The notes beneath the pieces were generated by a model, which saw only the letters and a program-made list of their open reading frames with translations, made no database searches and was not told where the DNA came from. Source: Cloacibacterium sp. TD35 (GTDB taxonomy: Bacteria; Bacteroidota; Bacteroidia; Flavobacteriales; Weeksellaceae). From it: a stretch of DNA of 64,000 nucleotides. A program made the translations under genes and the position numbers. Below, piece after piece: positions 25,194 through 29,404 of the stretch. The number at the start of each line of letters is the position of its first letter. The stretch's first letter is position 1. The stretch is from NCBI RefSeq assembly GCF_028864635.1, contig NZ_CP104850.1, forward strand, positions 1-64,000, given 5' to 3'.

Positions 25194-26042
25194 TTAGTCA
25201 GGACTGCCTTCTTTCTGTAATTTTTTATTATCTCTTAAATATTTTATCAATTTATCTACGATTTGTTTAGAATCATCTGAATATTCATTTTTAAGCCTTT
25301 GAACTTTATCTGCTTTCACTTTTGAAGCGCTGGTTTCCTGAACACTTACAAAAACTTCTAACAAAACAAAATCATCTGGAATGACGAATAAATCGGTAAT
25401 GTATTTATAGTCATTATTCTCATCCAAAACATTAAATTGCTCTGCATTTCCTATTTCCACGAGCGGAACTTTTACATTTTGGAAAGCGAATATTTCTTTT
25501 TTTCCTCCTGATTGATAAGCAATATTAATTTTGATTTCGTAATTATTGAAATTGGTTTTTTCCCAGACTTTAGCACCACTTGCATTGCATTCTATATGGT
25601 GAAGTTGATATACCAATGCATTTCCTTTTACGATTTCAGGAATAAATTGCGCGGAGAATGCTGTTAATCTTTCCTTTTGATTTTTGGTAACGATTTCTCT
25701 TTTCACTTTAAAAGCAGGAATTCTTTGGTCAAAAAGGTAGGTTCTTTTTGCAGAAAAGGAATCGGTATACTTAAGCACATCTCTATCAATTTGATTTTTA
25801 ATGATTTTGTAGCTTAAATTCACAAACGTATTAAGATTGGTATCGAAAAAACGAAGAAAGCTAGGACCAATGCTTTTTTCGGCATTTAATTCTTCGTATT
25901 TATTTACGGGAGGTTTTTCAAAAATCACAAGGGATTCTTCGCCTACAATGGGAATAGATGAAGCGTCTTTTTTATAAAAAAAATCTTGTGCAAAACTGAT
26001 TTGTACAACAAAAATTAAAAAAAGAAAATAGAATTTTTTCAT
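25194..26042 (-). CDS. Secreted protein of unknown function
   Basis: This 282-residue protein has a clear signal peptide (about 1-18, ending S-F-A-Q). The mature part is beta-rich with a Lys/Glu-rich helical end that contains R-L-K-N-E-Y and D-K-L-I-K-Y-L-R. I recognise no family and see no T9SS tail or lipobox, so it is probably periplasmic. The ATG at 26040-26042 is preferred over an upstream TTG because a perfect -7 box lies 19 nt before it. Confidence 0.65.
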   Translation of the reverse strand: MKKFYFLFLIFVVQISFAQDFFYKKDASSIPIVGEESLVIFEKPPVNKYEELNAEKSIGPSFLRFFDTNLNTFVNLSYKIIKNQIDRDVLKYTDSFSAKRTYLFDQRIPAFKVKREIVTKNQKERLTAFSAQFIPEIVKGNALVYQLHHIECNASGAKVWEKTNFNNYEIKINIAYQSGGKKEIFAFQNVKVPLVEIGNAEQFNVLDENNDYKYITDLFVIPDDFVLLEVFVSVQETSASKVKADKVQRLKNEYSDDSKQIVDKLIKYLRDNKKLQKEGSPD

Positions 26043-26152: not shown

Positions 26153-26242
26153 AAAATGAATTCTTTGCTATACAATAGTGTTAATTAAAAATACAGAAAT
26201 AAGAATTCATAATTATTATTACAAAAATCATGCTAAACACAT

Positions 26243-26270
26243 AAAAAAACGCCTTATTGCTAAGACGTTT
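26243..26270 (-). terminator. Intrinsic terminator of the candidate small RNA
   Basis: AAACGCCTTA and TAAGACGTTT form a 10-bp stem with one mismatch and a 4-nt TTGC loop (26247-26270). On the minus strand a run of seven T follows. It would also catch read-through from the kinase operon. Confidence 0.7.
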
Positions 26271-26325
26271 GGTTGTTAGTTTTTTTTCACTTGTGTTTCT
26301 AGAATGTTTTCATGATTGTTTTTAC
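26243..26325 (-). ncRNA. Candidate small RNA downstream of the two-component operon
   Basis: A promoter with palindromic operator (26331-26377) and an intrinsic terminator (26243-26270) face the same way only about 80 nt apart, and the interval holds only a 4-codon ORF. This is the layout of a regulated small RNA. No known family is recognised and no conservation could be tested. Confidence 0.35.
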
Positions 26326-26330
26326 CGTGA

Positions 26331-26377
26331 CAAAAGTAGTGAACCATGATAAACAAGTCAATTACACTTTTGTGTAA
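26331..26377 (-). promoter_or_regulatory. Palindrome plus -7 box (response-regulator type)
   Basis: TTACACTTTTGTGTAA (26362-26377) is a 6-bp perfect dyad. The minus-strand -7 box TACTTTTG (26331-26338) follows, with 27 bp between palindrome and TTTG. The same arrangement stands upstream of the response regulator gene at 29358-29404, including 21 identical bases around the palindrome. Confidence 0.6.
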
Positions 26378-26379
26378 TA

Positions 26380-27171
26380 TCACAATTTTATTTCAAAGAC
26401 TAAATGCAGTCCTTTTTCACTTGGTTTAATGGTGTAATTTCCACATAAATTTTGAATTCTACGCTGCATATTATTAAGACCATTTCCTGAAGTTAAACTC
26501 TCTCCTAATCCTACTCCATCGTCTATAATCTCCATGGTGAAACGTTGATCTTTTAATGTAAAAAGAATATCTACATTTTGAGCTTTACTGTGTTTATAGA
26601 CATTATTTAGCGCTTCTTTAGCACAGAGGAAGAAATTTCTTCTGATTTCTGCATTCAATTTAGTATCAGGAAGTTCTACTTTTCTGGTAATATTGATTTT
26701 AACATCTGTTTTCTTGAAAAAATTCTCAGCATAAAGCAATACATATTGCATAAAATTTCCCAGATTGTCATTACTAGAATTAAGGCTCCAAAGCATTTCT
26801 CGCATCGAGAGGTTCATTTCTTCTGAAGTCTTAAGTAAATCATCTATATCTTCTTTGAGATGCTGTTCTCCCACTTTTTGTTTTAAAAATTCTGCTTGAA
26901 GTTTCAACGCAGAAATCCCAGCACCCAGATCATCATGCATATCATGAGAAATTCTCTCTCTTTCTTCTTGAATTTTTTTCTGAATTTCTAATTCTTTTTC
27001 TAGAATTACATTACGATGTTCTATCTCCTGAAGCAGTTTTTCATTAATGAATGCTGCTTGTTTTTTTTTGTACACCATCACTACCAAAATAATAAACCCT
27101 ACAAACATTAATAGAATAATGATTGCAAAAATAAGTACCAATAATACTGGGTCTGGTAGAATTTGAGTCAA
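26380..27171 (-). CDS. Sensor histidine kinase, HisKA_3 (NarL-partner) type
   Basis: The 263-residue kinase has one N-terminal membrane segment (about 8-33), a coiled coil (about 40-72), then the HisKA_3 dimerisation motif R-I-S-H-D-M-H-D-D-L-G-A with His79 as likely phosphoacceptor. It ends in a HATPase domain (N-N-V-Y-K-H-S-K-A, D-D-G-V-G-L, G-N-G-L-N-N-M). There is no periplasmic sensor domain, so sensing may depend on the membrane partner upstream. The start appears to be TTG (27169-27171), two codons after the in-frame stop of that partner; the next ATG would remove most of the membrane segment. It pairs with the LuxR-type regulator four genes up. Confidence 0.88.
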   Translation of the reverse strand: MTQILPDPVLLVLIFAIIILLMFVGFIILVVMVYKKKQAAFINEKLLQEIEHRNVILEKELEIQKKIQEERERISHDMHDDLGAGISALKLQAEFLKQKVGEQHLKEDIDDLLKTSEEMNLSMREMLWSLNSSNDNLGNFMQYVLLYAENFFKKTDVKINITRKVELPDTKLNAEIRRNFFLCAKEALNNVYKHSKAQNVDILFTLKDQRFTMEIIDDGVGLGESLTSGNGLNNMQRRIQNLCGNYTIKPSEKGLHLVFEIKL

Positions 27172-27174
27172 AAT

Positions 27175-27861
27175 TTATTTTTTAAAAGAGTTAAACGTAC
27201 GTAAAACATTATAATCTACACATCTTAAACCTTTTATAAAAAAGGAATACATCATGATATTACAAATACTAAATAAAAAATTAATCACATTAAAAATATC
27301 TTGATTATAATTATATAACCATGTTCCAAGATACATTCTGAACAAAGAAAAAATACTCCAAAAAAGTAGAGCAAAACTTACCCAAAATGATTGTTTTACT
27401 GTGATATTCTGCTCATCTACAAATCTAATAATGTATAAAAACCACTGTAAACTCGCTAATAAGAAAAACAGAATCATCATGAGAAATACATTATTATTGA
27501 ATTTTGGAAAACCAATAGAAAATTGGAAATACAATGACATTCCTACAGAAATAGCCGCAATAGCATTTAAAAAATAATGGTCTTTTTTTGTTTTATAATC
27601 TTGGATATAAAAATACCTGAAATACAGTATGGAAAATATGATAAATGGGAAAAACAAATAAGTCTGATGAATCTTAAAAGCTTTTCTTATAAATACAACC
27701 CCTAAAACATCTACTATAAATACAGCCACTAAATAGAGGAAAAAATATTTTTGTTTGGCAGTATATCCTTTTTTCACCCATAAATAAATAGAGTATATCA
27801 TTGCTATGGCCACAACAATGTCATACGTATAATCTAAAATTTTATCTATCAATATCAACAT
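27175..27861 (-). CDS. Polytopic membrane protein of a two-component operon
   Basis: This 228-residue protein has about six or seven predicted membrane helices, many Phe and Tyr residues and short loops. No catalytic or transport motif is evident and I do not recognise a family. Its ATG overlaps the stop of the preceding lipoprotein gene (TAATG), and the kinase begins right after its stop. This tight coupling suggests that it is the sensory or signal-relay partner of the kinase, which lacks its own input domain. This is inference from gene order. Confidence 0.7.
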   Translation of the reverse strand: MLILIDKILDYTYDIVVAIAMIYSIYLWVKKGYTAKQKYFFLYLVAVFIVDVLGVVFIRKAFKIHQTYLFFPFIIFSILYFRYFYIQDYKTKKDHYFLNAIAAISVGMSLYFQFSIGFPKFNNNVFLMMILFFLLASLQWFLYIIRFVDEQNITVKQSFWVSFALLFWSIFSLFRMYLGTWLYNYNQDIFNVINFLFSICNIMMYSFFIKGLRCVDYNVLRTFNSFKK

Positions 27862-28682
27862 TATGGGCAATCATTAGGACAAAAAGTATTCAAATCAAAA
27901 CCAGACAAACTTTCTACATCACTCCCTTGAGCGTTTTGACAGTCTGTAATAAAAGTCATTTGACCAACACTTTCATCATTATACAATTTTAATTTTTTTC
28001 TCAAAATATTAGCTTCGGTTGAGGTGAGTAAAGTTTCATAATTTACCCTCTGTGCAAGTGTAATTTTAAAATTTTTGACATTTGCCTTAGCTGTTACTTT
28101 ATTTTTGTAAGCTAACAATTCATCTTTGGTAATTTTTACTCTTAGCGTATTTCCTTGAGCACCTTGTACTACTGCATCTATTTGAGGTTTAATATTTTGG
28201 ATATAATCATTTTCCATGATTTGGTAATCCGTCTCAGAAACTTCCACTATGTTATTTACATCTAGCATTGCATAAGCTTTATTACCTACATTATTGCCAG
28301 ATTTATCCATATAGTAATACAGCAGATAAAGAGAACCATCAAATTTAGTCAATTCCTGATATTTATTCAGGAACTTCGCCTTATTAAATTGAACAAAACT
28401 GAATGCTACTCTGTCTGCATTCACAGGAATTTGATCAATCATTTTTAAATAATTTTCTTTGCTTACTTTAAATGATTTTACATTTTTAGGATTTAGTCTT
28501 TTAAGGATTTTATACGTTACGGTATCAAAACTGTGTCTCATTGCAGAATCTAATTTTACTGGCATCGGTACATGCGCCAACAGTAAATCTTCTTTAGACA
28601 AATTTTTCTTGTCTCCACAGGAAAACAACAAGAAAAATACTACAATATACCCTAATAAAGAGAGAGTAGTCTTCTTTTTCAT
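27861..28682 (-). CDS. Lipoprotein of a two-component operon
   Basis: This 273-residue protein has a lipobox L-L-F-S-C-G (Cys22) after a hydrophobic signal segment. The mature part is mixed alpha/beta and contains many Lys and Asn. The C-terminus has four Cys or Pro-rich positions (D-C-Q-N near 253, then F-C-P-N-D-C-P at the end), which could form disulfides. I recognise no family. It sits between the response regulator (21 bp upstream) and the membrane protein (1-bp overlap), so it probably supplies an envelope input to the same signalling circuit. Confidence 0.7.
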   Translation of the reverse strand: MKKKTTLSLLGYIVVFFLLFSCGDKKNLSKEDLLLAHVPMPVKLDSAMRHSFDTVTYKILKRLNPKNVKSFKVSKENYLKMIDQIPVNADRVAFSFVQFNKAKFLNKYQELTKFDGSLYLLYYYMDKSGNNVGNKAYAMLDVNNIVEVSETDYQIMENDYIQNIKPQIDAVVQGAQGNTLRVKITKDELLAYKNKVTAKANVKNFKITLAQRVNYETLLTSTEANILRKKLKLYNDESVGQMTFITDCQNAQGSDVESLSGFDLNTFCPNDCP

Positions 28683-28703
28683 AATTCGATTTTTAGTTAT
28701 TAA

Positions 28704-29333
28704 TTATTGATTTTTAAACAGGTTTATGGCTTCTACTTTATTATTCACATGTAGCTTTTTATAGATATTTCCTACATGTTTTTTTACAGTATCTAGTGTA
28801 ACTTCTTTTATATCTGCTATTTCTTTGTAAAGATGACCTTTCGCTAGAAGATCCAGAATATCATGCTCTGTTTTAGAAAGTTCATTCAGATGATTATTGA
28901 AATTGGTTTTTTCTTCTCTAAAATATTGCAGAACTCTTTTTGCCACCCCGAAACTCATCGGAGCACCGCCTTTATAGGCATCTTTAATAGAGGCAATAAT
29001 CTTATCCATGCTTTCTCCTTTTATTAGATAACCTGTGGCTCCAACTTTTAGCGCTTCATAAATGTGCAAGTCATCTTCAAAACTCGTACACATCATAAAT
29101 CGAGTAGCAGGCAATGTATCTAATATTTGGGCGATGACTTCTATCCCGCTCATATCAGGAAGTTTAATATCCATTAAAACCACATCGGGGTGAATCTCTT
29201 GTAAGGAAACAAGAGCTGCTTTACCAGAATAAAATTGACCTACACAATGCAAATCGGCATCGTAATCAATTATCTTTTTGAGCGCATTGTTGTAATGCTT
29301 CTCGTCTTCTACGATAGCTACTGAGATTGACAT
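28704..29333 (-). CDS. LuxR/NarL-family response regulator
   Basis: This 209-residue regulator has a receiver domain (E-D-E at 9-11, phosphoacceptor Asp55 in L-M-D-I-K-L-P-D, conserved C-T-S and K-G) followed by a LuxR helix-turn-helix (about 145-205) with L-S-K-T-E-H-D-I-L and K-E-I-A. It is first gene of the four-gene operon ending in the kinase. A palindrome 56 bp upstream of its ATG recurs with the same spacing to a second promoter at 26331, which fits autoregulation by a LuxR-type dimer. Confidence 0.92.
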   Translation of the reverse strand: MSISVAIVEDEKHYNNALKKIIDYDADLHCVGQFYSGKAALVSLQEIHPDVVLMDIKLPDMSGIEVIAQILDTLPATRFMMCTSFEDDLHIYEALKVGATGYLIKGESMDKIIASIKDAYKGGAPMSFGVAKRVLQYFREEKTNFNNHLNELSKTEHDILDLLAKGHLYKEIADIKEVTLDTVKKHVGNIYKKLHVNNKVEAINLFKNQ

Positions 29334-29357
29334 AATATTTTCATCGTTTGTTAATTA

Positions 29358-29404
29358 CAAATTTCAATAGAAATTTTGTAAATATCAATTACACTTTTGT
29401 GTAA
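29358..29404 (-). promoter_or_regulatory. Palindrome plus -7-like box of the response regulator operon
   Basis: TTACACTTTTGTGTAA (29389-29404) precedes the minus-strand sequence GAAATTTG (29358-29365), a one-mismatch -7 box, with 27 bp between palindrome and TTTG. A further GTGTAA half-site follows at about 29413. Confidence 0.6.

Follow-up and report, generated by a model that had tools for sequence, protein, structure and literature searches.

Paired palindromic promoters flank a two-component operon that probably links an exchangeable sensory pair to an exchangeable output in Cloacibacterium and its relatives

Why should a four-gene operon be bracketed by two copies of the same palindrome, one ahead of its first gene and one just behind its last? 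The question arises in the 64,000-nucleotide stretch of the Cloacibacterium sp. TD35 genome analysed here (the window), where the operon encodes a response regulator (RR), a hypervariable lipoprotein (V), a predicted seven-transmembrane (7TM) protein (T) and a short membrane-anchored histidine kinase (HK), and is followed by a short predicted transcription unit (Table 1).

Table 1. Features of the operon and its flanks in the window.
Feature	Position	Strand	Basis or remark
RR, response regulator, receiver and GerE/LuxR-type HTH	28704..29333	-	Pfam PF00072, PF00196
V, hypervariable lipoprotein, C-terminal tail ...FDLNTFCPNDCP	27861..28682	-	AF2, tail classes
T, predicted 7TM protein, N-out/C-in	27175..27861	-	positive-inside count; first listed start 27870
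HK, short membrane-anchored HisKA_3 histidine kinase	26380..27171	-	Pfam PF07730
Upstream operator palindrome TTACACAAAAGTGTAA (putative)	29389..29404	-	centre ~-43.5 relative to predicted start 29353
Operon promoter -7 TTTG (predicted)	29358..29361	-	27 bp past palindrome
Downstream operator palindrome (putative)	26362..26377	-	2 bp past kinase stop
Second promoter -7 element TACTTTTG (TAnnTTTG, predicted)	26331..26338	-	predicted start ~26326; consensus and position per PMC9723704
Predicted ~87-nt transcript	26240..26326	-	seven-genome alignment; GAAAA and AAACACAA blocks conserved
Intrinsic terminator hairpin, then T run (predicted)	26247..26270	-	hairpin in Cloacibacterium alignment, register shifted in two species

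The 16-bp palindrome TTACACAAAAGTGTAA occurs in two copies, both flanking the operon. Read on the operon's minus strand, both copies appear as ATTACACAAAAGTGTAATTGA, with 21 identical bases in the same orientation, and at both the gap to a TTTG is exactly 27 bp (29361..29358 for the upstream copy, 26334..26331 for the downstream one); the preliminary description had claimed as much, and the window coordinates confirm it. The upstream palindrome ends 55 bp 5′ of the regulator ATG. A TAnnTTTG box is placed at -12 to -5 in Flavobacterium (PMC9723704). Carried over to the window, this position would put a transcription start past each palindrome, with both operator centres at about -43.5. A centre at that distance is usual for an activator, and the predicted arrangement is thus activator-like at both promoters. 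The genome search that had been proposed as a check found TTACACNNNNGTGTAA at only two places in the one-contig genome of 2,595,287 bp (2.595 Mb), both at the operon and both with the 27-bp spacing, and the reversed control pattern once. Base composition leads us to expect about 0.3 matches by chance, so that this count carries modest weight by itself; the strong evidence for the paired sites is their conservation in relatives.

Some 50 orthologous loci were collected through relatives of the kinase, from Chryseobacterium, Kaistella, Moheibacter and other Cloacibacterium species, and for the spacing test the sites in them were chosen by sequence alone, with spacing not used in the choice. The operator is present 5′ of the regulator in 56/59 loci, and TTTG follows at exactly 27 bp in 52/56 upstream and 35/39 downstream sites. 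The only other recurrent TTTG distances are 10 bp (16 upstream and 4 downstream sites) and 16 bp (4 downstream sites). Across the family, GTGTAATTGA-N23-TTTG is matched in 128 of 320 genomes, with few hits of the reversed control, and many of the matches are same-strand pairs about 2.9-3.0 kb apart, matching the operon length. A third genome match (G000, 1361767) was set aside as a chance or coding match; its context, GTGTAATTGAATC-CAAAAAGG, is constant in G000 and the Cloacibacterium counterparts. The core TACACAAAAGTGTAAT of the downstream palindrome is invariant in 7/7 Cloacibacterium genomes. Two Cloacibacterium species (G003 and G005) have lost the upstream operator and retain a perfect downstream palindrome, which argues that the second promoter is maintained independently of the first. 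In the clade of L056, L068, L076 and L079, about 325-340 additional bp separate the operator from RR, giving the regulator gene a long 5′ leader. Extra operator copies with the 27-bp spacing are found upstream of the operon, 5′ of Amidase_2 and SH3 genes, at L056 (991) and L072 (1381), and point to a larger regulon in some species.

The proteins that would act on these sites are conventional in their domains. RR matches PF00072 (8.7e-23) and PF00196 (1.4e-13) in Pfam, as expected of the NarL/FixJ (LuxR-type) regulators, and the recognition helix of its HTH is near-invariant in the same loci that have conserved sites; RR is the putative ligand of the palindromes. HK belongs to the HisKA_3 kinases (PF07730, 6.9e-12) and has the H-box ISHDMHDD, and a recognised sensor domain was not found in it with Pfam. 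With both sites, their spacing and the recognition helix kept across many species, the initial proposal of autoregulation plus a second target is favoured.

What the comparison adds to that earlier account is a predicted second promoter that is placed downstream and directed away from the operon. In Chryseobacterium and its relatives, it follows the terminator of the kinase gene, most often some 60 bp from the HK stop, and its genes, which sit between HK and enolase, fall into many unrelated clusters. They encode YLATT, pYEATS and trypsin-like proteins, DyP peroxidase, DUF6175 proteins, and uncharacterised membrane proteins and lipoproteins, and many have no Pfam family. They begin just past a shared leader and 'ATGAAAAC', and the leader and first codons (often ATGAAAACT) are constant while the gene changes, as in L055, L074 and L075. 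In most loci without a second site, enolase is the next gene after HK; at L062, L081 and L083, cargo is present and a recognisable second site was not found. At L167, cargo-like genes lie inside the operon, between V and T.

The second promoter in Cloacibacterium heads a unit of about 87 nt that ends in a predicted terminator in 7/7 genomes. The flanks diverge among the seven, while no variation is seen in the palindrome core, TTTG, GAAAA and AAACACAA; the unit is a candidate small RNA that may be transcribed and functional. Rfam gave no family above the gathering threshold for the transcript, the only match in the window being a tRNA, and covariation support was not found for RNA structure beyond the terminator. 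A peptide product was rejected: the tiny ORF MKTF is not conserved, with its ATG lost in G001 and G004. Nearly as likely as a small RNA is an emptied cassette that is still transcribed. It is quite conceivable, though less than probable, that the second promoter of Cloacibacterium is left over from a gene cassette since lost and that its short transcript is functionless, a situation compatible with the explanation preferred below. The resemblance of ATGAAAACATTC-stop to a truncated cassette start, the loss of the ATG in two species and the differing neighbouring genes agree with such a loss, but the palindrome core, TTTG, the two conserved blocks and the terminator have been kept in seven genomes with diverging flanks. 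In G002, an rve-type (IS3-like) transposase pair (L162, 4024-5255) lies directly past the short unit, which is intact. A 282-aa secreted-looking protein without a Pfam family (window 25194-26042, minus strand) is found beside the operon only in G000, G002 and G006, and is split by a frameshift in G006.

The two genes between RR and HK are of a different character. Neither V nor T matched a family in any library tested, including Pfam and NCBIfam, which bears out the original statement that the lipoprotein and the polytopic protein lack a recognised family, and sequence relatives with solved structures were found for neither. The AlphaFold2 model of V is confident (pLDDT 87) and has an apparently duplicated alpha/beta body, for which structure searches returned no clear known fold; a sliding-clamp-like assignment (Z about 6, Foldseek E never below 0.1) was too weak to be adopted. 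V nevertheless constitutes one family, since its profile matches L198-L202, from another family of the order, strongly and more distant genera weakly. The model of T has seven helices (pLDDT 88), and an N-out topology is predicted. Its best structural neighbours are GPCRs, with Z up to 12.8 over 211 aligned residues and an rmsd of 4.1, just below the level at which the tool trusts helical bundles; the score may reflect a common helical arrangement only, with no bearing on ancestry.

Median identity across the loci falls from 83% for RR and 71% for HK to 31% for T and 22% for V, and in L055, L074 and L075 the regulators are 100% identical, yet T is 21-29% and V 19-23% identical. The C-terminal tails of V fall into the classes GxLxP, RNGLCPP, FCxxPP, CPxxC (that of the window) and DTF. 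Mapping of these classes requires 5 changes on the T tree, compared with 15-16 on the RR and HK trees and about 18-24 for shuffles. Tail class thus tracks the T tree and not the RR and HK trees, which indicates that the tail moves with T and that both have been swapped independently of RR and HK. The identity of the V tails also climbs with that of T, while the V bodies stay at about 22-27% (Mantel 0/2000). A gene set of this kind is also found in distant Flavobacteriales, where its order is often V-T-HK-RR and the short tails, again different, contain Pro or Cys. The suggestion that V and T provide the sensory input is favoured, given their hypervariability and their tight linkage to each other beside a conserved RR and HK. 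The V profile also picks out orphan V-like proteins, one with an intact RNGLCPPGC tail, in the output region of L058 (5982-6698) and L082 (5856-6461); these are possibly donors or leftovers of V exchange. Roughly 41/60 V proteins (about two thirds) have no recognisable export signal, in a tally where the automated lipoprotein count of 14 missed the window's group and a few others, which were added by eye. The V proteins of L047 and L048, whose T proteins are 61% identical, have near-identical tails; one is a lipoprotein and the other is without an export signal.

Based on these observations, we consider it probable that the operon encodes a four-protein module in which a swappable V/T pair acts on a conserved HK-RR core that governs both the operon itself and a swappable output beside it. 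The tail-bearing V would act through T, by which the signal would reach the kinase; T would control HK, and HK would phosphorylate RR. At each of two promoters, RR dimers would then occupy the palindrome, which adjoins the -33 element and is centred at about -43.5. One promoter is the operon's own and would provide positive feedback; the other starts just past the kinase gene and would drive the adjacent output. V and T would form an exchangeable specificity pair because, as we propose, T reads the C-terminal tail of V. The output would be a second exchangeable slot, which holds a variety of genes in Chryseobacterium; in Cloacibacterium, a short RNA would take their place. The main point against this explanation is that the same T clade pairs with lipoprotein and with signal-less V proteins, which leaves the meeting place of tail and T unexplained. 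The predicted N-out topology of T is also easier to reconcile with a ligand outside the cell than with V in the cytosol, the upstream -7 box in the window (GAAATTTG) is an imperfect match, and G003 and G005 have a changed -33 TTG in their downstream promoter.

V might instead be a pheromone precursor, with the tail released as a peptide and T, together with HK, as its receptor, in quorum sensing of the agr or ComQXPA sort. Polymorphic signal and receptor genes between a conserved kinase and regulator, autoinduction with an adjacent output, short tails that often have Cys pairs or a terminal Pro and are locked to T, and the GPCR-like arrangement of the seven helices of T would all fit. We nonetheless regard such a system as unlikely, given that the most variable part is the V bodies and not the tails, that most V proteins have no export signal, and that the operon has no processing or export gene. 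It is also improbable that the locus is a conventional autoregulated two-component system for envelope or stress responses, in which neighbours vary by free recombination and the variation of V and T carries no specificity. RR and HK are indeed standard NarL-type and HisKA_3 proteins, and variable neighbours are found at many bacterial loci, but free recombination would not be expected to leave tail class tracking T almost perfectly, as measured against the shuffled labels, or to leave promoter, spacing and start region fixed while the genes change. A more far-reaching version of the preferred module, which we offer tentatively and hold to be doubtful, is a polymorphic signalling system of the Flavobacteriales. 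In it, the tail of a hypervariable partner would be the allele-specific ligand of a free-standing 7TM receptor, which would act through a single conserved kinase-regulator pair to turn on the system itself and a plug-in output of conflict-related genes or regulatory RNA.

Among known systems, the staphylococcal agr locus (agrBDCA, with promoters P2/P3 and RNAIII; PMC10482373) offers a close parallel in layout: its regulator acts on the promoter of the agr operon and on a neighbouring effector promoter able to drive a regulatory RNA, as RR would do at the two promoters here, and hypervariable signal and sensor genes accompany a conserved kinase and regulator. The components differ: RR is of the LuxR/NarL (GerE) type and the agr regulator a LytTR protein, the promoters are tandem in the operon and divergent in agr, V is a protein of 190-300 aa, and T is separate from the kinase. 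Pfam and NCBIfam gave no match to AgrB or AgrD in V or T. Exchangeable polymorphic signal-receptor circuits of this kind are well known in Gram-positives, and our search found no account from Bacteroidota like that of the operon; a paper on a Riemerella two-component system concerns an OmpR/BaeS pair. The natural swaps of sensor pair and output around a conserved kinase, regulator and promoter make specificity and output testable by allele exchange.

With NarL-, UhpA- and GacA-type systems, the operon shares a HisKA_3 kinase, a receiver-GerE regulator and an inverted-repeat operator upstream of the promoter, and GacA likewise activates small RNAs. It is set apart from those systems by a kinase that lacks its own sensor domain, by two additional proteins without a known family, by a different operator and by a Bacteroidota-type promoter. 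The YLATT/pYEATS conflict systems (Pfam PF20303, PF20305), reportedly described by Burroughs and Aravind in 2020, are related to the locus through some Chryseobacterium output cassettes, which carry YLATT-pYEATS and trypsin-like proteins; these are one cargo class only, and the window has none of them. The operon may overlap with the pYEATS systems described there. Among the anti-phage defence models of PADLOC there is none for V or T, and the hits for RR, HK and the protease were weak and generic. A search of the literature on pYEATS, Bacteroidota peptide signalling and the operon yielded nothing specific. Bacterial 7TM sensors, 7TMR-DISM and LytS/BtsS, have seven membrane helices that would pass a signal to a histidine kinase (PMC10653868), an arrangement also proposed for T. 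No Pfam family, 7TMR-DISM included, matched T at E<=0.001, and T differs from these sensors in standing alone, with neither a cytoplasmic nor an extracellular domain, and in being paired with a tail protein. If the tail/7TM linkage is true, T would be a bacterial stand-alone 7TM protein that recognises a protein C-terminus.
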